A DNA stretch of 60,601 nucleotides from Rhodospirillales bacterium (GTDB lineage: Bacteria > Pseudomonadota > Alphaproteobacteria > JAJFIK01), in contig JAJFIK010000064.1 of NCBI GenBank assembly GCA_021775005.1, forward strand, positions 1 to 60,601, in the 5' to 3' direction. Position numbers and translations under genes: made by a program. The notes below the pieces were generated by a model. It saw only the letters and a list, made by a program, of their open reading frames with translations, did no database searches and had not been told where the DNA came from. Shown here one piece after another: positions 25,496-52,061 of the stretch (positions are counted from its first letter, which is position 1; every line of letters begins with the position of its first letter).

Positions 25496-25783
25496 ATGTC
25501 GGTCGATCAAGACACGGTCCGGCGCATCGCGAAGCTTTCGCGCATCGCCATCAAAGAAGAACAAGTTGAACCCATGACGGGGGAGCTGAACGGCATCCTG
25601 GCGTGGGTGGAGCAGCTCCGTGAGGTGAACACCGATGGCGTGCCGCCGCTCACCTCTGTGGTGGAGGCGAAGTTGAGCATGCGCGAGGACGTCATCACGG
25701 ATGGCGGCATTCCTAAGGATGTAACGCGCAATGCCCCCGAAACCGAAGACGGCTTCTTTGTTGTGCCGAAGGTGATGGAATGA
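25496..25783 (+). CDS. gatC: GatC, Asp/Glu-tRNA amidotransferase subunit C
   Basis: The 95-residue protein is the small scaffold subunit of the GatCAB amidotransferase, which makes Gln-tRNA(Gln) and Asn-tRNA(Asn) from mischarged tRNAs. It starts [19 protein letters not shown] and contains [22 protein letters not shown], the family signature. The ATG at 25496 has AGGGA seven bases upstream; a longer in-frame extension is not conserved. gatA overlaps its stop by four bases. Confidence 0.95.
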
Positions 25784-27255
25784 GCCAGCTCACCGATATG
25801 ACCCTGGCGCAAATGCGTGACGGCCTGCGCGCTAAGACCTTCAGCGCCCATGATTTGGCCGAAGCGCATCTGACAGAGATGGAAGCCTCCCGCATTCTCA
25901 ATGCCTTTTTGGTGGAAACCGGCGACAAAGCCCTCGCCATGGCGCGGGAAAGTGACAAGCATCTTGAGGCAGGCACGGCGCGGCCCCTTGAGGGCATTCC
26001 CCTTGGCATCAAAGATCTCTTCTGCGTCAAGGATGTGCCCACCACCGCTGGCAGCCATATTCTTGAGGGTTTTTCTCCACCTTATGAAAGCACGGTGACG
26101 CAGAATCTTTGGCACGACGGTGCTGTTTGCCTCGGCAAGCTCAATATGGATGAGTTTGCCATGGGCAGCTCCAACGAGACGAGCTACTTCGGGCCGGTGA
26201 AAAACCCCTGGCGGCGCGCAGGTTCAAATCAAGACCTGGTTCCCGGTGGGTCCTCCGGGGGATCCGCCGCTGCAGTGGCGGCCAAACTGGTTCCCGGCGC
26301 AACGGGCACCGATACCGGCGGCTCCATTCGCCAACCGGCAGCGGTCACCGGCATTGTGGGTGTAAAGCCCACCTATGGCCGTTGTTCGCGCTGGGGCGTT
26401 GTGGCGTTCGCGTCTTCTCTGGATCAGGCGGGGCCGCTTGCGCGCACCGTGCAAGATTGCGCCATCATGCTCAAATCCATGGCGGGTCATGACCCGAAGG
26501 ATTCAACTTCGCTAAAAGTCGATGTGCCGGATTTTGAGGCCGCCATGACCGGCGACGTGAAGGGTTTGCGCATTGGCGTTCCCAAAGAATATCGCGTTGA
26601 CAATATGCCGGAAGAAATTGATGCCCTCTGGCAGCAAGGCATTGAGTGGCTGAAAGCAGCAGGCGCTGAGATTGTGGATGTCACTCTACCGCACACCAAA
26701 TATGCGCTGCCAGCTTACTACATCGTAGCTCCGGCGGAGGCATCATCGAACTTGGCGCGGTATGACGGGGTGCGCTATGGCCTACGCGAAGCAGGCACCG
26801 ACATTACTGAGCTTTATGAGAACTCCCGCGCTGCAGGCTTTGGTCACGAAGTACAGCGCCGGGTGATGATCGGCACCTATGTTTTGTCTGCGGGCTATTA
26901 TGACGCTTACTATCTGCAGGCGCAGAAAGTGCGCACGCTTATCAAGCGCGACTTTGATGAGGCGTGGGCCACCTGCGACGCGATCCTGACGCCAACAACC
27001 CCTGGCCCTGCATTTGCCATTGGCGAAAAGGCAGACGATCCGCTGGAAATGTATCTCAATGATATTTTCACGGTAACGGCGAACATGTCGGGGCTACCAG
27101 CCATTTCAATTCCGGGGGGCGTGACCAAAGACGGCTTGCCTTTGGGTCTTCAACTCATTGGCAAAGCTTTGGATGAAGAGACGTTGTTCCGTGTTGGCGG
27201 CGTGATCGAAGAGGCCGCACAGTTCACCGCGCAGCCTGATGTGTGGTGGAGGTAG
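25780..27255 (+). CDS. gatA: GatA, Asp/Glu-tRNA amidotransferase subunit A
   Basis: The 491-residue amidase-signature protein liberates ammonia from glutamine for GatB. The catalytic Ser-cisSer-Lys triad is present: K78 in [10 protein letters not shown], cis-S158 in GGSSGGS and nucleophile S182 in TGGSIRQPA. The remaining sequence, including [11 protein letters not shown] and GVKPTYG, is standard for the family and the length is normal. It is the middle gene of gatCAB, three bases before gatB. Confidence 0.97.
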
Positions 27256-27258
27256 GCC

Positions 27259-28740
27259 ATGACAACGAAATCTCCAGAAGCCACCACAGGGCAAAAATTG
27301 ATCCAGGGTGTCACCGGCCCATGGGAAATTGTCATTGGCTTGGAAGTCCACGCCCAAGTGAGTTCCAACTCGAAGCTTTTTTCGGGGGCAGCCACCGAAT
27401 TCGGCGCGGCACCCAATAGCCAGGTGAGCCTTGTTGATGCGGCTATGCCGGGCATGTTGCCGGTGATCAACAAATACTGCGTGGAACAAGCGGTGCGCAC
27501 GGGCCTTGGCCTGGAAGCGCAGATCAACAATTACTCCGTGTTTGATCGGAAAAACTATTTCTATCCGGATCTGCCACAAGGTTATCAAATCTCGCAGTAC
27601 CTTCAGCCTATTGTGGGGGAGGGCACGGTGCTTCTTGATATGCCCGATGGAAAAACCGTTGAGATTGGCATTGAGCGCCTGCACCTGGAGCAAGATGCGG
27701 GCAAGTCGATCCATGACATGCATCCGCAGCATTCGTTGGTGGATTTGAACCGCTCTGGTGTGGCGTTGATGGAAATTGTCTCCAAGCCGGATATACGCTC
27801 GTCAGAAGAAGCGGGGCTTTACGTCACTAAGCTGCGTTCGATCCTACGTTACCTGGGCACCTGCGACGGCAATATGGAACAGGGCTCCATGCGTGCCGAT
27901 GTGAACGTGTCCGTGCGCCGCCCTGGCGAAGAGTTGGGCACAAGGTGCGAGATCAAAAACATGAACTCCATCCGTTTTATTCGCGCCGCCATTGAATACG
28001 AAGCCCGTCGCCAGGTGGACGTGATCGAGGAGGGCGGCACCATCACCCAGGAAACACTTCTTTATGATACCGCCAACGGGGTTACGCGCTCCATGCGGTC
28101 CAAAGAAGAAGCGCATGATTATCGCTATTTCCCCGACCCTGATTTGTTGCCGCTGGAACTTGATCAATCCTGGGTAGATGAAATTCGTTTGTCATTGCCA
28201 GAGCTGCCGGACCAAAAGAAAAAGCGGTTTATCGATGATCTTGGCCTGTCGCCTTATGACGCCAGTGTGCTGGTGGCCGACCGCGAGCGCGCAGCCTATT
28301 TTGAGACCGTTGCTGAAGGCCGTGATGGCAAGCTGGCCTCTAACTGGGTTACCTCTGATCTCTTCGGGGCGTTGAAGAAGTCTAATCTCGATGTCACCGA
28401 AAGCCCGGTTTCGGCTGAGGCGCTGGGGCGTCTTATTGATCTCATCTCCGACAACACCATTTCAGGCAAAATCGCCAAGCAAGTGTTTGAGATCATGTTT
28501 GCAGAGGGCGGTGAGGCCGCTGACATTGTGGAAGCGCGCGGGCTGCGCCAGGTGACCGACAGCGGTGCCATTGAAGCGGTAGTAGATGACATCATCGCTG
28601 CGAACCCGGAAAAGGCCGCCGAAGTTGCGACCAAGCCCAAGGCTCTTGGCTGGTTTGTGGGCCAGGTCATGAAGGCGACGCAGGGGAAAGCAAATCCCCA
28701 AGCCGTGAATGAGATACTGAAGAAAAAGCTGGGCGGGTAA
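27259..28740 (+). CDS. gatB: GatB, Asp/Glu-tRNA amidotransferase subunit B
   Basis: The 493-residue protein activates the tRNA-bound Asp or Glu with ATP and receives ammonia from Gat[19 protein letters not shown] (about 29-46), the FYPDLPKGYQISQY-like segment and [26 protein letters not shown] are the kinase-like core motifs. The C-terminal YqeY-like helical domain that grips tRNA spans about 345-493. It ends the gatCAB operon; the GST genes follow after 53 bases. Confidence 0.97.
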
Positions 28741-28793
28741 CGCAGAGCCGTTATGGTTCATCCCAATGCGAATTAAACTATGGGACCCCGCAC

Positions 28794-29510
28794 ATGATTG
28801 AATTTCATACCTGGTGGACGCCAAACGGTTGGAAAATTGGCATCATGCTCGAAGAGTGCGGCCTTGATTATGAGCTCTTCCCCGTCAACATCGGCATTGG
28901 TGATCAATTCAAACCAGAGTTTCTAGCTATCAGCCCTAATCACCGCATTCCGGCAATCATCGACCGTGACGCAGAGGGCGGGCCGCTGTCTATATTCGAG
29001 AGCGCAGCGATCCTTATGTATCTGGGGCGTAAAACCGGCAAGTTCTATCCCACCGATGAGCGCAAGCGCACCAAGGTGGAAGAATGGCTCATGTGGCAGA
29101 TGGGCGGGGTCGGCCCCATGTTTGGCCAAGCGCACCACTTCCTTATGTATGCGCCGACGATTGAGCCAGACGCCTCAAAGCTTGAATACGGCCAGAACCG
29201 ATACCGCAACGAGACCCGACGCCTCTACGGCATTATGGACAAGCAGCTTGGCAACGAAGAATTTTTGGCCGGCGAATATTCCATTGCCGATATGGCGGTG
29301 TGGCCTTGGGTGCTGCCCCACACACGGCAACAAATCGAGCTGAAAGATTTCCCGAACGTGGACCGATGGTTTCAGCAATTGCGCGCGCGCCCAGAAGTTC
29401 AACGGGGATATGAGATCTGCAAGGATGAACGCGAGGAAGCCAATAAGGTGGATGACCCCAAGAAGGCGCAGGAAATCCTGTTTGGTAAAGAACAGTTCAA
29501 AAAACACTAA
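28794..29510 (+). CDS. Glutathione S-transferase family protein (Nu-class/YfcG-like)
   Basis: The 238-residue protein has an N-terminal thioredoxin-fold domain (FHTWWTPNGWKIGIMLEECGLDYE, then HRIPAIIDRDAEGGPLSIFESAAILMYLGRKTG) and a C-terminal helical GST domain with YSIADMAVWPWVL. The motif TxNGxK and FESxAI are typical of YfcG/YghU-type enzymes, which use the Asn/Thr region to bind glutathione and act as disulfide-bond reductases. It is 12 bases ahead of a second, related GST gene, so the pair is a tandem duplication that has diverged. Confidence 0.92.
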   Translation: MIEFHTWWTPNGWKIGIMLEECGLDYELFPVNIGIGDQFKPEFLAISPNHRIPAIIDRDAEGGPLSIFESAAILMYLGRKTGKFYPTDERKRTKVEEWLMWQMGGVGPMFGQAHHFLMYAPTIEPDASKLEYGQNRYRNETRRLYGIMDKQLGNEEFLAGEYSIADMAVWPWVLPHTRQQIELKDFPNVDRWFQQLRARPEVQRGYEICKDEREEANKVDDPKKAQEILFGKEQFKKH

Positions 29511-29522
29511 GGCGGAAACCCA

Positions 29523-30185
29523 ATGATCGACTTCTATACCTGGTCCACACCGAACGGCCGCAAGGTCTCCATCATGCTCGAGGAATGCGGCCTTGAGTAT
29601 AAGACCTATACGGTCGACATCGGGAACGAGGAGCAATTCCGGCCAGAATTTATTGCGGTCTCTCCCAACAACCGCATCCCTGCGATTGTTGATCCCGATG
29701 GGCCGGGTGGTCAGCCGCTGGCGCTGATGGAATCGGCTGCCATCATGATCTACCTGAGCGAAAAGACCGGCAAGTTTTTGCCTGGCTCCGGCGCGGCGCG
29801 TGCCAAAGTCATGGAATGGTCCATGTGGCAGATGGGCAATATTGGCCCCATGCTTGGGCAAGCTGGACACTTCGTCAATTATTCGGAAGAGAAGATCGAA
29901 TACGCCATCAACCGCTATGTGAACGAGTCCGCGCGCCTATTGCGAATTCTTGACGACCAACTTGGCAAAGAAGAATTCATGGCGGGCGATTACTCCATTG
30001 CGGATATGCTGACCTACCCGTGGATCGTTCCCGCATGGACCCCTTTACACGCGCTTAAGAAAGACGTGATCGGGGAGGGTGCAAATATCACCCGTTGGAT
30101 GGCCACTATGGGCGCGCGACCCGCAGTATCAAAGGGTATGGCAGTGCCTGACGAGTACGCCGTCAGTATACGGAATAAAGCGTAA
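29523..30185 (+). CDS. Glutathione S-transferase family protein, second copy
   Basis: The 220-residue protein is a paralogue of the preceding one: FYTWSTPNGRKVSIMLEECGLEYKTYTVDIG, NRIPAIVDPDGPGGQPLALMESAAIMIYLSEKTG, and the C-terminal YSIADMLTYPWIVP. The substrate-side helical domain has the larger differences, so the two enzymes probably act on different disulfides or electrophiles. A plausible ribosome binding site (GGCGGAAACCC) lies ahead of the ATG. The two genes are likely cotranscribed. Confidence 0.92.
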   Translation: MIDFYTWSTPNGRKVSIMLEECGLEYKTYTVDIGNEEQFRPEFIAVSPNNRIPAIVDPDGPGGQPLALMESAAIMIYLSEKTGKFLPGSGAARAKVMEWSMWQMGNIGPMLGQAGHFVNYSEEKIEYAINRYVNESARLLRILDDQLGKEEFMAGDYSIADMLTYPWIVPAWTPLHALKKDVIGEGANITRWMATMGARPAVSKGMAVPDEYAVSIRNKA

Positions 30186-30259
30186 GACTTTCGCAAGTAG
30201 TCTTAATTTCCGTTTACTAAAAACTCTTTTCGCCTTAACTCCGCGTTTATCACAACGGC

Positions 30260-30302
30260 GCACGATCCCCCCTTACACGGACGGCTGGGGGGTCGTCCTT
30301 TA
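30260..30302. terminator. Stem-loop after the GST pair
   Basis: An inverted repeat ACGATCCCCC/GGGGGGTCGT with a loop of about 12 bases lies after the second GST gene and ends in TCCTTTAG, a weak T tract. It could be a terminator for the gat/GST transcript or a structured leader for the Sel1 gene, which starts 38 bases later. Confidence 0.5.
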
Positions 30303-30339
30303 GGTGACCTTGTGGGTCACGGACCTAAGGGAGTTGGGA

Positions 30340-30633
30340 ATGGCGTGTTTAGACGCAGGGGAGCGCGAGCTGCATCGCTTGGCAAAGGAAGACCGGGCTG
30401 CAGACGCGATGTATAGTTTAGGCATCATGTATTCCACTGGCGATGGCGTGCCGATGGATTACGTCGAAGCCCACAAGTGGTTCAATCTATCTGCCATGCT
30501 AGGCAATGCTGATGCGCGGGGGTGGCGTGGACAACTGGCTGAGGAAATGCGGCAGACAGATATTGCTGAAGCACAGCGCCAAGCCCGCTCATGGTTACAA
30601 GATAACAAAGACGACGAATCCGACGCAGCGTAA
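30340..30633 (+). CDS. Sel1-repeat (TPR-like) protein
   Basis: The 97-residue protein has one clear Sel1 repeat (AMYSLGIMYSTGDGVPMDYVEAHKWFNLSAMLGNADA, roughly residues 20-56) followed by helices (AEEMRQTDIAEAQRQARSWL). Sel1 repeats are protein-protein interaction modules; in Rhizobiales such short stand-alone proteins are common and uncharacterised. The ATG at 30340 has GGGAGTTGGGA just upstream; a longer frame from 30304 starts within the preceding stem-loop region and is less likely. It is probably cytoplasmic, as no signal is present. Confidence 0.8.
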   Translation: MACLDAGERELHRLAKEDRAADAMYSLGIMYSTGDGVPMDYVEAHKWFNLSAMLGNADARGWRGQLAEEMRQTDIAEAQRQARSWLQDNKDDESDAA

Positions 30634-30642
30634 AAGTTTGGA

Positions 30643-31680
30643 TTAGGCTTGCTGTTGGGCTGCTTGTTGGCGGGCTTTTTCTCGCTCCAGGCCCTCGGCG
30701 TCAGTGAAAAACGTGAAGAGGCCCAGGCGCACACCCTTGGTGACAGGCAAAGCCTCGTGCAGCAGCGAACATGAGAAGACTACGCCCCCCCCTGCGGGTG
30801 GTGAATAAAGCCCGCGCCCATACTCAGGGAAGCGGAGCTCGCCTCCTTCATATTCAGATGTATTTAGATTGATCGTCACGGCAAAGCGCCGGTGGGCTGT
30901 GTGTTGCGTGGTGTTGTCACGGTGGCGACCGAAGGCCCCTTCGTTTGCTGCATCATAGCCGCCAATGCGGAGCGCCTCCATGGACGCGATGCGCATACGA
31001 AATGCTTTCTCTAGCAAAGGTAGCACGCGCCGCCCAATTTGGGCTTTGACTTGGGTAAACAGTTCGCCGTCTGGCAACACAACATCATCTCGTCGTTTTA
31101 TGCTCGTAACGTCTGCCGCATTACCCTGCTGGGCGCTGGCTACCGTTCCTTTTTGTTTGGGATTATTCTTCCAATGAGCAATCAACCCTTTGCAAAGGTC
31201 TATGTCGAGAATATTTTCAATCATGAGCACAGGCGCTGCATGGCTGATGATTGATGGCGTGTCCTTGTCGTATGCCGCTTCGCAGAAGGTTATCGCTGCA
31301 TCCAGTTCAAGATCAGAGAATTGCGCTGCGAGTTGGCCTTCTGGGGATACAACAGCAATGGCGCGCCCGGTCGAGCCGGTATAATAGACGGCGGCCTTCC
31401 GGCTCTCATCAAACAGGTCCACGCCAATTTGGGTTTCGTCCGGTAGTGCCATGACCACCACAAACAAGCGCCCTTCAACGGCTTCCAGGCGTGCCCGAGC
31501 CGCTGCAATAGCCTCGCGCCGGGCGGTGATGTCGTCCACTTCCAGAAACAAAATAATTTGCCAGCGCCCGGCCCGTGTCTGTTGGCTCAGGCCAACGCCG
31601 TTTCCTTTGGCGTCGGGTAGCACCACATTGGGTACAGGATCGCCAATGGCTAGGGGGTCAGGGGCGTCTTGCTGGTTCAT
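30643..31680 (-). CDS. Redoxin-fold/2OG-Fe(II) oxygenase fusion
   Basis: The 345-residue protein joins an N-terminal peroxiredoxin-like domain (about 8-145; starts LAIGDPVPNVVLPDAKG, later YYTGSTGRAIAVVSPEG) to a C-terminal prolyl-4-hydroxylase-type 2-oxoglutarate/Fe(II) oxygenase domain. The iron ligands H253-x-D255 (GRHRDNTT) and H308, and the 2OG-binding R318, are all present. The redoxin part has no cysteine in its first 130 residues, so it cannot act as a peroxidase and may bind substrate. The ATG at 31680 is chosen because residues upstream are low-complexity Arg/Pro without family character, and GAGG lies ahead. A paralogue is encoded at 50.9 kb. The hydroxylated substrate is unknown. 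Confidence 0.86.
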   Translation of the reverse strand: MNQQDAPDPLAIGDPVPNVVLPDAKGNGVGLSQQTRAGRWQIILFLEVDDITARREAIAAARARLEAVEGRLFVVVMALPDETQIGVDLFDESRKAAVYYTGSTGRAIAVVSPEGQLAAQFSDLELDAAITFCEAAYDKDTPSIISHAAPVLMIENILDIDLCKGLIAHWKNNPKQKGTVASAQQGNAADVTSIKRRDDVVLPDGELFTQVKAQIGRRVLPLLEKAFRMRIASMEALRIGGYDAANEGAFGRHRDNTTQHTAHRRFAVTINLNTSEYEGGELRFPEYGRGLYSPPAGGGVVFSCSLLHEALPVTKGVRLGLFTFFTDAEGLEREKARQQAAQQQA

Positions 31681-31839: not shown

Positions 31840-32394
31840 ATGACGACTATTAGACAATTGATCGCGCTCACGGTCCTCTGCATTGCAGTAGCGGCGCCGG
31901 CGCTTGCGCAAGATGAGTTACCTAGCTGGTGGCAGGACCATGTCTACTTCATGAGTCATGAGGGCGGGACCTGGCGAGCGGCCAATCGGGATGTGACCGA
32001 AGATCCACGTTCGCCAGACCATTTCGAAATGGTTTGGACACGCGTCAATGATGGCTATGGTCTGCGTGGTCGTCTCTATGGTTTGCGCGACGGCGAAAAC
32101 GTCGGCGAGTATTGGACCTTCGCTGAATTTTGGCACCCCGGGGAAGCGCGGGCCATACTAGAGCAATGGAGCGCCCGCGGCGCGTACGGCATCGGAGAGC
32201 TTGGATCGGTTGGTGAGCACCGCTACGAATTAGCCCAGACATTTTGGACTCGCGCAGGTCAAGCATCGCAGAGTGGGCATCGGACTTTCGAAGACGGCGA
32301 TACCTACAATACCGATACCTTCGCAATTGACGGTGATGGGAATTGGGAACAATCCGGCGGTCTTGTTTGGACGCGGGTTACACCGTCGCAATAA
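31840..32394 (+). CDS. Secreted hypothetical protein
   Basis: The 184-residue product starts with a signal peptide (TIRQLIALTVLCIAVAAPALAQ, cleaved near ALAQ|D) and continues with a Trp-rich sequence (SWWQDHVYFM, FEMVWTRVNDGYGLRGRLYGL, TFWTRAGQASQ, GLVWTRV). The repeated xWTR(V/A) pattern suggests a small beta structure with several similar strands. I do not recognise a family. It diverges from the redoxin/2OG gene (160 bases between starts) and ends two bases from the convergent sigma-factor gene. The ATG at 31840 is chosen for its signal peptide. Confidence 0.75.
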   Translation: MTTIRQLIALTVLCIAVAAPALAQDELPSWWQDHVYFMSHEGGTWRAANRDVTEDPRSPDHFEMVWTRVNDGYGLRGRLYGLRDGENVGEYWTFAEFWHPGEARAILEQWSARGAYGIGELGSVGEHRYELAQTFWTRAGQASQSGHRTFEDGDTYNTDTFAIDGDGNWEQSGGLVWTRVTPSQ

Positions 32395-32396
32395 AA

Positions 32397-33665
32397 CTAA
32401 TTGGTTAGTGATTTGCGTTTCTTTTCCAAGAATTCACGTTCAGCCACATTCTGCGTCAGCTCTAGTGCCCGATCATATGCCCTATGCGCTTCGGTGTTTC
32501 GTCCCGCTCGCGCCAGCATGTCGGCTCTTGCTGCGTGAAACGGTTGATACTTTGCAAGGCGGGGTTCGATCTCAAGGGCCTTTAGCGCCGCAAGCCCCGC
32601 CTGAGGCCCCTCAGAATAAGAAACCGCCACAGCGCGATTGAGCAGCACCACCGGGCTTGGGTTCTGGGCATACAATTGGTCATAGAGCCCAATCATGGTG
32701 AGCCAGTCGGTTTCGGCGAAACTTTTGGCGCGGGCGTGCACCGCGCTCAAACTTGCCTGAAGTGTGTATGGCCCGGGCGATGCACTGTCACCGGCCATCA
32801 TCAAATGGGTCAGGCCTTCAGCAATGTCATCAGGCTCCCACTTATCGCGATCCTGCGCATCAAGAGGAATGATTTCTCCCTCGCGCCCCAACCGCGCATA
32901 CCGCCGCGAGTGATGCAGCAGCATGAGTGCCAGAAGGCCCGCCGCCTCAGACTCCGCTGGTACCAGCCCGGTCACAATCCGCCCCAGGCGAATGGCCTCT
33001 TCGCACAAATCAGTGCGGGCATGGGTGTCGCCCTTCAGTGCCGCATAACCCTCGTTGAAGATGAAATAAATCACGGCGAGGACTGCCGCCATGCGCTCCC
33101 CCCAAAGCTCAGCATCAGGGACGGTATAGGGAATGCCGGCAACGCTGATCTTGCGCTTCGCCCGCACAATACGCTGCGCCATGGTGGTCTCGCTGACCAG
33201 GAAGGCGCGGGCGATCTGCGGCGTGTTGAGGCCGCAAATTGTCTTCAAGGTCAATGCGACGCTTGCTTCGTGGGGCAGCGCCGGGTGGCAGCAGGTGAAG
33301 ATCAGCTTGAGGCGATCATCAGGAAACGGGGAGGGATCATCGTCGTGAGCACCACCTTCAAGTTCCCTCAGTATCGCCAGCTGCTGTTGCTTGGTCTGAA
33401 ATACTTTGGCGCGGCGAATGGCATCGATGGCCTTGCGCTCAGCGGTGCGGAGTAACCAGGCGCGCGGGCTTTTGGGCATACCGTGGTTTGGCCAATGGGA
33501 TAGGGCAGCGACATAAGCATCTTGCAAAGCATCCTCGGCCAATTCGATTTGCCGTACGCGGTGCAGCAGGGCCGCTAGAACGCGGCCCCACTCCTGACGC
33601 ACCGCATGGTCGATCTGGCGGTTTGTGACCGGAACTGGCTCTTCAAAACGATCAGTCACGGCCAC
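32397..33665 (-). CDS. ECF sigma factor with C-terminal TPR domain (ECF42/SigJ-like)
   Basis: The 422-residue protein is an alternative sigma factor of the large ECF type. Sigma region 2 is AEDALQDAYVAALSHWP...SPRAWLLRTAERKAIDAIRRAK (about 40-85) and region 4 is LKTICGLNTPQIARAFLVSETTMAQRIVRAKRKI (about 140-173). The rest is a long helical domain with the pattern of TPR-like repeats (PYTLQASLSAVHARA, YDQLYAQNPSPVVLLNRAVAV). This is the ECF42 architecture, in which the C-terminal extension takes the place of an anti-sigma factor. The partner DGPF gene lies seven bases upstream and is expected to be its target or cofactor. Confidence 0.9.
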   Translation of the reverse strand: MAVTDRFEEPVPVTNRQIDHAVRQEWGRVLAALLHRVRQIELAEDALQDAYVAALSHWPNHGMPKSPRAWLLRTAERKAIDAIRRAKVFQTKQQQLAILRELEGGAHDDDPSPFPDDRLKLIFTCCHPALPHEASVALTLKTICGLNTPQIARAFLVSETTMAQRIVRAKRKISVAGIPYTVPDAELWGERMAAVLAVIYFIFNEGYAALKGDTHARTDLCEEAIRLGRIVTGLVPAESEAAGLLALMLLHHSRRYARLGREGEIIPLDAQDRDKWEPDDIAEGLTHLMMAGDSASPGPYTLQASLSAVHARAKSFAETDWLTMIGLYDQLYAQNPSPVVLLNRAVAVSYSEGPQAGLAALKALEIEPRLAKYQPFHAARADMLARAGRNTEAHRAYDRALELTQNVAEREFLEKKRKSLTN

Positions 33666-33671
33666 ATCGCA

Positions 33672-34022
33672 TCAGTCAAACACCACCACGGGGCGCACTT
33701 CAATCCGGCCATGTTCAGCGCCGGGGATTTTAGCCGCCCACTTGAGAGCTTCATCAAGGTCTTTGCAGTCGAGCAGATAATAACCGCCTAATTGCTCCTT
33801 GGTTTCTGCAAACGGTCCATCAACTATTTCGGATTTGCTGCCACGCACAGAAACTGTGCTGCCGGACTCCGACGGTTGAAGCGCATTGCCGCCGCGCATG
33901 ACGCCGGCCTCATTGACTTCATTGGTGAAGGCAAAATAGCCCGCCATTATTTTTTCAAATTCCGGGGTACCGGGCTGGGGTTCGGTTTTAGGGTCAGTGT
34001 AGATGCCAAGTAGATATTCCAT
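33672..34022 (-). CDS. DGPF-domain (YciI-related) protein
   Basis: The 116-residue protein has the signature VDGPFAETKEQLGGYYLLDC (about 71-90) and starts with MEYLLGIYTDPK. It is the DGPF/YCII family usually found beside ECF42 sigma factors, and it is often the target of the sigma factor. An alternative ATG at 34034 adds four residues, but GGAGG lies nine bases ahead of the ATG at 34022. The enzymatic role of these dimeric alpha/beta-barrel proteins is not known. It is the first gene of the two-gene unit. Confidence 0.9.
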   Translation of the reverse strand: MEYLLGIYTDPKTEPQPGTPEFEKIMAGYFAFTNEVNEAGVMRGGNALQPSESGSTVSVRGSKSEIVDGPFAETKEQLGGYYLLDCKDLDEALKWAAKIPGAEHGRIEVRPVVVFD

Positions 34023-34190
34023 AGTGTCCTCCATTTTTCCCGCTCAAGAATCTCGAGGGGGTCGGACTAAAGACGAACGGGCGTGCCCCCTTTCGACAGT
34101 CAATCTAGAATATTTTTGCCGTTGAGGGCCATTTCTGTCCTTTGCGGCGGTCAGGGCGATCAGGGGGCAATATTTGGGGAGAAATCTGCC

Positions 34191-50915: not shown

Positions 50916-52061
50916 ATGTCTCAGTTTTTCCAGTCTCTCGCCTATGAAAGACCACCCGCAATCGGCATGGCGGCACCGTGGTTTTCCGCACCAACGCCGC
51001 GCAATCCTCACTTTACTTTCTCGTCGTTGGGGGGGCGCTGGATTTTATTGCACTTTTTTGGAGATAGTCGCGTGCCGCAAAGCACGAAATTCCTCGCCGC
51101 CCTGGCAGAGAAGCCCTTCGATTTTGGTGACGATCATTTCGTAAGTTTTGGCGTTACTTATCGTCAGCGTGATTTGGAGGACGCCGCGGTTCAACGTGCT
51201 TTTCCCGAACGCCGCGTCTTTTTGGATGAAGATTTTGAAATTGCACGCCGGTATGGCCTGACAAAAACCGTTGCGGAAATAGAGGGCGGGCCCTATCGCG
51301 CGCGATGGTTTTTGCTTGACCCGACGCTGCGTGTCTATGACAGCGGAGCGCCACACGAGTACGATCGGCTTGCCAAGATTATACGAGAATTACCTTCAAC
51401 AGATGAACATGTAGGGCTCGCGGAAAACCGATTTGCGCCCGTCTTGGTTATACCCCGCGTCGTTAGCCGCGACTATTGCAAGCAACTCATTGATGTCTAC
51501 AACAAGGGCCAGCCTGAAGTTTCCGGGTTTATGCGCCAAGTTGATGGCAAGACTGTTCACCAATTTGACAAAAGTTTCAAACGGCGCAGTGATGTAAGAA
51601 TCGCAGATGAAAAGCTACGGACCGAATTACGAGCGGCGGTGCTCACACGGATCGCGCCGGAAATTCACAAAAGCTACCAATTTGATGTGACGCGTATAGA
51701 GCGGTTTATCGTGGCGTGTTATGACGCGGACGAAGGCGGGTTTTTCCGAGCGCACCGAGACAACACCACATCGGGAACGGCTCATCGCCGCATGGCGGTG
51801 ACCATCAACCTCAATACGGAAGACTATGATGGTGGCGGTCTTCGTTTTCCAGAATATGGAACAAGAGAGTTTCGCGCGCCGACAGGCGGTGCCGTCGTCT
51901 TCTCTTGCGCTTTGCTTCATGAAGCGCGCCCGGTACTTAGGGGCACGAGATATGCAACACTGCCATTCCTTTATGATGATGCGGCGGCGGAAATCCGCGC
52001 TGAAAATCGTCATTTGCTTCAACCAAGCCCCGAACCCAACGATTTGGATATGATAAAATGA
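50916..52061 (+). CDS. Redoxin-fold/2OG-Fe(II) oxygenase fusion, second copy
   Basis: The 381-residue protein is a paralogue of the one at 30.6-31.7 kb. The N-terminal redoxin-like domain (about 12-160; AIGMAAPWFSAPTPRNPHFTF, RWILLHFFGD, RWFLLDPTLRVYD) has no cysteine before residue 188. The C-terminal 2OG-Fe(II) oxygenase keeps H280-x-D282 (RAHRDNTT), H335 (ALLHEARPV) and R345, and shares TAHRR.AVTINLNT with the other copy. It is probably soluble. It overlaps the saccharopine-dehydrogenase-like gene by four bases (ATGA), so the two are translated together. The substrate is unknown. Confidence 0.86.
   Translation: MSQFFQSLAYERPPAIGMAAPWFSAPTPRNPHFTFSSLGGRWILLHFFGDSRVPQSTKFLAALAEKPFDFGDDHFVSFGVTYRQRDLEDAAVQRAFPERRVFLDEDFEIARRYGLTKTVAEIEGGPYRARWFLLDPTLRVYDSGAPHEYDRLAKIIRELPSTDEHVGLAENRFAPVLVIPRVVSRDYCKQLIDVYNKGQPEVSGFMRQVDGKTVHQFDKSFKRRSDVRIADEKLRTELRAAVLTRIAPEIHKSYQFDVTRIERFIVACYDADEGGFFRAHRDNTTSGTAHRRMAVTINLNTEDYDGGGLRFPEYGTREFRAPTGGAVVFSCALLHEARPVLRGTRYATLPFLYDDAAAEIRAENRHLLQPSPEPNDLDMIK

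Follow-up and report, generated by a model that had tools for sequence, protein, structure and literature searches.

Two genes, W1 (30643..31680, minus strand) and W2 (50916..52061, plus strand), located in a stretch of 60,601 nucleotides of Rhodospirillales DNA (hereafter the window), each encode a redoxin-like half followed by a 2OG-Fe(II) oxygenase half. Both are probably protein hydroxylases with a non-catalytic redoxin accessory domain, and in cyanobacteria the product of such enzymes would sometimes be glycosylated. New here are the family-wide loss of the peroxidatic cysteine, with one cyanobacterial clade that bears it, and the presence of glycosyltransferase fusions in the family; no prior description of this redoxin-oxygenase fusion was recognised in the open-licence literature searched.

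Both gene assignments are based on open reading frames, Pfam matches and AlphaFold2 models. Translation of W1 from the ATG at 31680 yields 345 amino acids, that from an in-frame TTG at 31911 would yield 422; W2 encodes 381 amino acids. In W1, Pfam detected 2OG-FeII_Oxy_3 with 44.4 bits (cut-off 27), and AhpC-TSA remained at 16.2 bits, under its cut-off of 26; in W2, both domains scored above cut-off (44.7 and 29.9 bits, respectively). The models (pLDDT 93.5 and pTM 0.89 for W1; 90.8 and 0.85 for W2) have pTM values consistent with two packed domains. The sole run of at least three residues with pLDDT below 50 in the W1 model is the loop 185-189, which presumably lies where PHDs carry the mobile loop covering the substrate. 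Used as query against the 2.85 Mb genome that contains the window, W1 retrieved two matches only, itself and W2. The first-pass annotation had described a paralogue at 50.9 kb with the same architecture and a different N-terminus, and this agrees with BLASTP, by which the oxygenase halves share 42 % identity and no significant match is obtained for the N-terminal halves. A deep split of the oxygenase tree separates W1 from W2 and would be compatible with different targets of the two proteins.

The oxygenase half comprises residues ~141-345 of W1 (30646..31260, minus strand; PF13640, 3.4e-11) and the region 51411..52058 (plus strand; PF13640, 2.6e-11) of W2; in the confident models, both have a double-stranded β-helix of the P4H/PHD type (VIA-align Z 19-20). 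Conservation was assessed across 143 non-identical proteins from alphaproteobacteria, cyanobacteria and a few others, which contain this oxygenase half preceded by at least 120 residues. The HxD...H iron ligands of W1, His253 and Asp255 (30916..30924) and His308 (30757..30759), as well as Arg318 (30727..30729; all minus strand), are invariant in 143/143 aligned relatives, bearing out the full ligand set claimed earlier for this half; their counterparts in W2 are H280, D282, H335 and R345. Judging from the P4H/PHD family, Arg318 presumably binds the C5-carboxylate of 2OG. The nearest folds found by VIA-align are peptide and protein hydroxylases, the direction in which the first-pass annotation had pointed: PHD2 and the P. 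putida P4H (4iw3) rank top for W1 (Z 19.2 each), and an algal P4H with a Ser-Pro peptide ranks best for W2 (Z 20.4), together with the P. putida P4H:EF-Tu complex (4iw3; 19.7) and the Trichoplax PHD with a HIF peptide (18.7). The PKHD enzymes reach 18.4-18.6 for W2, such that the gaps to the protein hydroxylases are small (within 1-2 Z). The best oxygenase matches listed for the A4 profile included PKHD hydroxylases and, at 8.4e-7, a lysyl hydroxylase-glycosyltransferase of mimivirus. None of the best structure and profile matches listed aligned well across both halves.

The redoxin-like half of W1 (residues ~1-140; 31261..31680, minus strand) is real despite the AhpC-TSA score below cut-off, because a profile of 12 W1-type redoxin halves matched one built from 13 free-standing BCP-type peroxiredoxins (hhalign, probability 97.6 %, E 3.7e-12) and because the AlphaFold2 models are confident; its thioredoxin-like fold is based on this profile match and on the model, all VIA-align matches listed for W1 being to oxygenases. 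The corresponding half of W2 (residues ~1-165; 50916..51410, plus strand) matched BCP and AhpE directly in VIA-align (Z 17.1-17.3, rmsd 2.2-2.8 across 139-147 residues). It is less diverged and longer than that of W1, W1-type halves being shortened in general. Of 17 free peroxiredoxins, 16 have the active-site residues P, T, C and R, the exception (L131) being taken to be a fragment of a fusion. In the stretch concerned (L131:1766-2986), redoxin and oxygenase fragments are split over two reading frames, perhaps by a frameshift or an assembly error. Aligned with the free peroxiredoxins, W1 has E, I, a gap and R, and W2 has G, V, S and A at these four columns. Residues 47-54 of W1 (31519..31542, minus strand) thus form a remnant of the peroxiredoxin active-site loop with P changed to E, T to I and the Cys deleted. 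The Arg of W1 aligns at the catalytic column, but its sister L003 has Pro there, and Arg occurs in 16 of 135 fusions. Both halves lack what a peroxidase needs, as expected from the earlier description of a dead redoxin. That description had also called the half cysteine-less, which is correct for the peroxidatic position (gap in W1, Ser in W2) and for the whole half of W2, which has zero Cys, but not for W1, in which a single Cys133 is located in the last helix (31282..31284, minus strand). Cys133 was ruled out as a relocated active site, since this column holds Cys in just 14/143 relatives and mainly Leu, Ile or Val in the others; from the alignment, it looks like core packing. No other Cys position of this half shows wide conservation across the 143 relatives, i.e. 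a redox Cys shifted elsewhere, which would have spoken against a dead redoxin, was not found.

Judged from this alignment, the Cys-less state is a family trait: it is the rule among the members from alphaproteobacteria and among most of those from cyanobacteria, one clade of which keeps the Cys. The redoxin profile has 146 columns, at least 90 of which are filled in 138 of the 143 rows; L136 is counted among the rows though without a redoxin half (1/146 columns), and L070, L076, L067 and L020 fill 42-63. The long N-terminal extensions of L048, L053, L067, L071, L128 and L205 were left out as probably spurious frames, as judged by eye. A Cys at the peroxidatic column was found in 9/143 relatives, eight of them cyanobacterial and one alphaproteobacterial (L204); all eight cyanobacterial proteins also retain the Arg. 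On the oxygenase-half tree, the Cys state requires three changes, a number as low as this being reached in none of 500 shuffles. The eight cyanobacterial Cys keepers sit in one nine-tip clade with weak support (68), within which seven of them form part of an inner clade supported at 95. The full PxxxTxxC...R set is present in L178 alone among the Cys keepers, with AhpC-TSA at 94.3 bits. The simplest history would be fusion to a working peroxiredoxin, the chemistry of which was lost in most lines and retained in one cyanobacterial clade; W1 and W2 would then most likely go back to a fusion whose BCP/PrxQ-type peroxiredoxin still worked and was retired later. The tree is unrooted and therefore compatible with a gain of the Cys as well; retention is favoured because P, T and Arg of L178 also match. 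The gene of L178 (L178:1483-2613; cyanobacterium G304), with the full active-site set ahead of an oxygenase, possibly encodes a working bifunctional enzyme. In a further cyanobacterial group (L115, L086, L108, L109, L097 and L096), a Cys is located eight residues past the lost peroxidatic position, and most of these proteins also have a Cys in a downstream YGVC motif, possibly forming a new disulfide.

The retired redoxin half is under purifying selection. When dN/dS was computed for 31 pairs of related fusions, this half had a finite value in 25, always below 1 (0.07-0.79), and the value exceeded that of the oxygenase half in 24 of the 25 comparable pairs; these pairs share sequences and include Cys-keeping ones, so that the figures describe a trend and do not constitute a test. 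Furthermore, G13, P17, G38 and D91 of the redoxin half are kept in 139-140 of the 143 relatives. On account of the ω values below 1, these near-invariant residues and the ligands present in every relative, the oxygenase is regarded as the working part and the redoxin half as kept for its fold.

Three cyanobacterial members carry a glycosyltransferase on the same chain. In L117 (910 amino acids; L117:4706-7435) and L096 (879 amino acids; L096:3889-6525), a GT4 domain follows the oxygenase (PF12000, 2.2e-71 and 1.2e-62, plus PF00534), and in L180 (753 amino acids; L180:1399-3657), PF11397 ('GlcNAc', 6.9e-60) is located N-terminally, ahead of the redoxin half. These long frames are unlikely to occur by chance, because their G+C content is 48-52 % and the domains are matched. 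In the oxygenase tree, L117 and L096 are closer to W2, and L180 forms a long branch closer to W1. We take PF11397 to be the family of Gnt1, which adds GlcNAc to the hydroxyproline of Skp1. A PDB sequence search with the L180 glycosyltransferase gave no significant match. PF11397 is rare in cyanobacteria (5/244 genomes), and among those five, only G509 had the oxygenase in the stretch read; it was found in 0/21 genomes of the window and its relatives, 14 control genomes giving 0 as well. Directly upstream of the L180 gene, on the same strand of stretch L257, resides a gene for a protein O-mannosyltransferase (PMT, 5.9e-42), with a GT2 gene one gene beyond it, likewise on the same strand. In a single case (L077:6442-8472), a TPR-GT41 gene of the O-GlcNAc transferase type is convergent with a W1-type fusion. 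In the chains of W1 and W2 themselves, no glycosyltransferase was detected. The fusions suggest a protein side chain as the likeliest target, and in the glycosyltransferase-fused cyanobacterial lineages, glycosylation of the hydroxyl group is a likely next step.

W1 adjoins gatA-gatB (named by eye from the sequence), two GST genes (GST_N, GST_C) and a Sel1 gene, and W2 is the first gene of an apparent pair, its end being overlapped by the ATG of a saccharopine-dehydrogenase-like gene. Clustering of 1,319 neighbour genes from 82 stretches (80 loci and the two window stretches) revealed no family recurring in a consistent place beyond close relatives. From 60 of the 80 loci, in which the gene caller had kept the anchor, 216 flanking proteins were obtained, and those examined comprised 57 of 65 cyanobacterial and 118 of 151 other proteins, the rest having been dropped as near-duplicates or to limit alignment size; no Pfam family occurred in more than 3/57 or 3/118 of them, respectively. 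The genes gatA and/or gatB reside beside the fusion gene in L055, L056, L101, G026 and G157, an adjacency read as inherited position and not as function. GST genes at first appeared in 10/82 stretches, but that of Thalassospira is of a different kind and in a different place, and a check covering more stretches detected the window's kind only in the window's genus, G026 and G157 (beside the gene) and G038 (near it); the GST link was therefore dropped. The arrangement of gatA-gatB and/or the GST pair beside a redoxin-2OG gene (window 25780-31680; L055, L056, L101, L258, L259, L277) is shared by several alphaproteobacterial lineages. Further along the window (32397-34034), a gene for a sigma-70-like factor with DUF6596 adjoins a short ORF; the related sigma gene of L055 is located beside a YCII-domain gene. 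Tandem same-strand pairs of redoxin-2OG fusions were observed at L128:781-1809 and 1809-2891 as well as at G776:C42:151217-153318 (L203, L213).

Across genomes, matches were detected in 17/244 cyanobacterial ones (better than 1e-70) and, in a second draw, in 23/386 (1e-40). In the window's phylum, 19/398 genomes had a match at 1e-30; in its class, 88/289 had one at 0.001, including relatives of the oxygenase half only. W2 had no match in phage records, and W1 matched two plasmid records, by the oxygenase half only. An IMG/VR contig classed as viral (L135) encodes a redoxin-2OG fusion that closely resembles the one of Methylovorus (L126).

W1 and W2 are thus proposed to act in the cytosol as hydroxylases of proteins or peptides and to belong to the prolyl/lysyl-hydroxylase branch among 2OG-Fe(II) oxygenases; HxD...H-held Fe(II) and Arg-held 2OG would oxidise the side chain of a protein-borne Pro or Lys residue. 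Their N-terminal half would be a peroxiredoxin domain of the BCP/PrxQ type that has lost its peroxidase chemistry and now serves as a rigid accessory domain, most likely recognising or positioning the substrate or a partner. Some cyanobacterial relatives would probably then attach a sugar to the hydroxylated residue by means of the glycosyltransferase of the same chain. The idea put forward in the first-pass annotation, namely that a dead redoxin provides recognition for a protein hydroxylase, is hence retained as the best single reading; the recognition part is what we infer, and a purely structural role of the redoxin half would agree with these data as well.

The oxygenase might instead be PKHD/PiuC-like and hydroxylate a metabolite, e.g. 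during iron uptake, the redoxin half then acting as a scaffold. PKHD models are indeed the only NCBIfam matches, and the best matches by sequence and by Foldseek include PiuC and Sbal_3634; yet the NCBIfam scores (34.4 bits for W1, 41.9 for W2) stay far under the curated cut-off of 143, VIA-align places hydroxylases bound to peptides or EF-Tu slightly higher within the narrow range given above, glycosyltransferase fusions exist, and no transport or siderophore neighbour recurs among the 25 families listed per set. We consider such a small-molecule substrate rather unlikely. A tentative extension of the protein hydroxylase reading, which we would not put forward as probable, is a bacterial counterpart of the Skp1 pathway: O2-dependent redoxin-P4H hydroxylases, the product of which is a glycosylation site, would employ a retired peroxiredoxin as substrate receptor, and W1 and W2 would be two such enzymes with different targets, using unlinked glycosyltransferases or hydroxylation alone as signal.

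For the redoxin half itself, a relic that is being lost and survives only as a folding scaffold would agree with its faster evolution relative to the oxygenase, with the few pairs near relaxed rates (ω up to 0.79) and with the shortened W1-type halves. Such a relic is at odds with ω below 1 in all 25 finite pairs, the near invariance of G13, P17, G38 and D91 and the well-filled redoxin columns of most rows, and we consider it quite unlikely. Slightly more doubtful still would be a non-catalytic redox or docking module for a glutaredoxin, GST or true peroxiredoxin, by which hydroxylation is tied to the redox state: the GST gene pair beside or near the fusion gene in the few lineages named above may be taken in its favour, but GSTs of this kind were found in only 5/100 anchored loci at E<=1e-20 (L055, L056, L258, L259, L277; many of the loci being truncated), the GST of Thalassospira differs, and the redoxin half has no widely conserved Cys. 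An active peroxidase guarding the Fe(II) centre with its Cys placed elsewhere could appeal to L178, with its complete active site, and to the seven clade-mates that keep Cys and Arg; for W1 and W2, it is largely refuted by the sequence (gap and Ser at the peroxidatic column, Cys133 shared by few relatives, no Cys in the W2 half) and hence extremely improbable.

Among known systems, the Pseudomonas prolyl hydroxylase PPHD is described as acting on EF-Tu (PMC5701443), a substrate that is a folded protein according to PMC7864055. PPHD of P. putida and P. aeruginosa (4iw3/4j25) is also bacterial and has the P4H/PHD fold in common with the W1 and W2 oxygenase halves, at an identity of just 17-22 %. 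To our knowledge, PPHD possesses no redoxin half. In the case of Skp1, hydroxylation is stated to enable glycosylation (PMC7864055). The PhyA-Gnt1 fusions of this protist system (Dictyostelium, Toxoplasma) are paralleled by L180, which has PF11397 and a hydroxylase on one chain; in contrast to them, L180 has a redoxin domain between both enzymes, and W1 and W2 carry no glycosyltransferase. Mimivirus L230 and human LH3, both matched by profile to the oxygenase half (8.4e-7 and 2.3e-5, respectively), likewise combine hydroxylase and glycosyltransferase on one chain, as do the cyanobacterial fusions. As far as we know, they employ other glycosyltransferase families in another domain order and without a redoxin domain. 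The redoxin half shares fold and profile with the BCP/PrxQ and AhpE peroxiredoxins, compared to which W2 lost the active-site P, T, C and R and W1 lost P, T and C. The PKHD-type proteins YbiX and PiuC have an oxygenase domain related to that of W1 and W2, which match them in the oxygenase half only and far under the family cut-offs.

Few bacterial protein hydroxylases have known substrates, and the present family offers direct handles: its second domain can be recognised, one small genome contains two diverged copies, the ancestor-like L178 keeps the peroxidase set, and in L117, L096 and L180 a glycosyltransferase is part of the chain. Hydroxyl-linked glycans can be looked for in these last three, and the contrast between L178 and W1 bears on the fate of the redoxin half. 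Hydroxylation followed by glycosylation is a protein modification known from Skp1 and collagen; if the product of the enzymes described here is glycosylated, this modification would gain a bacterial version.
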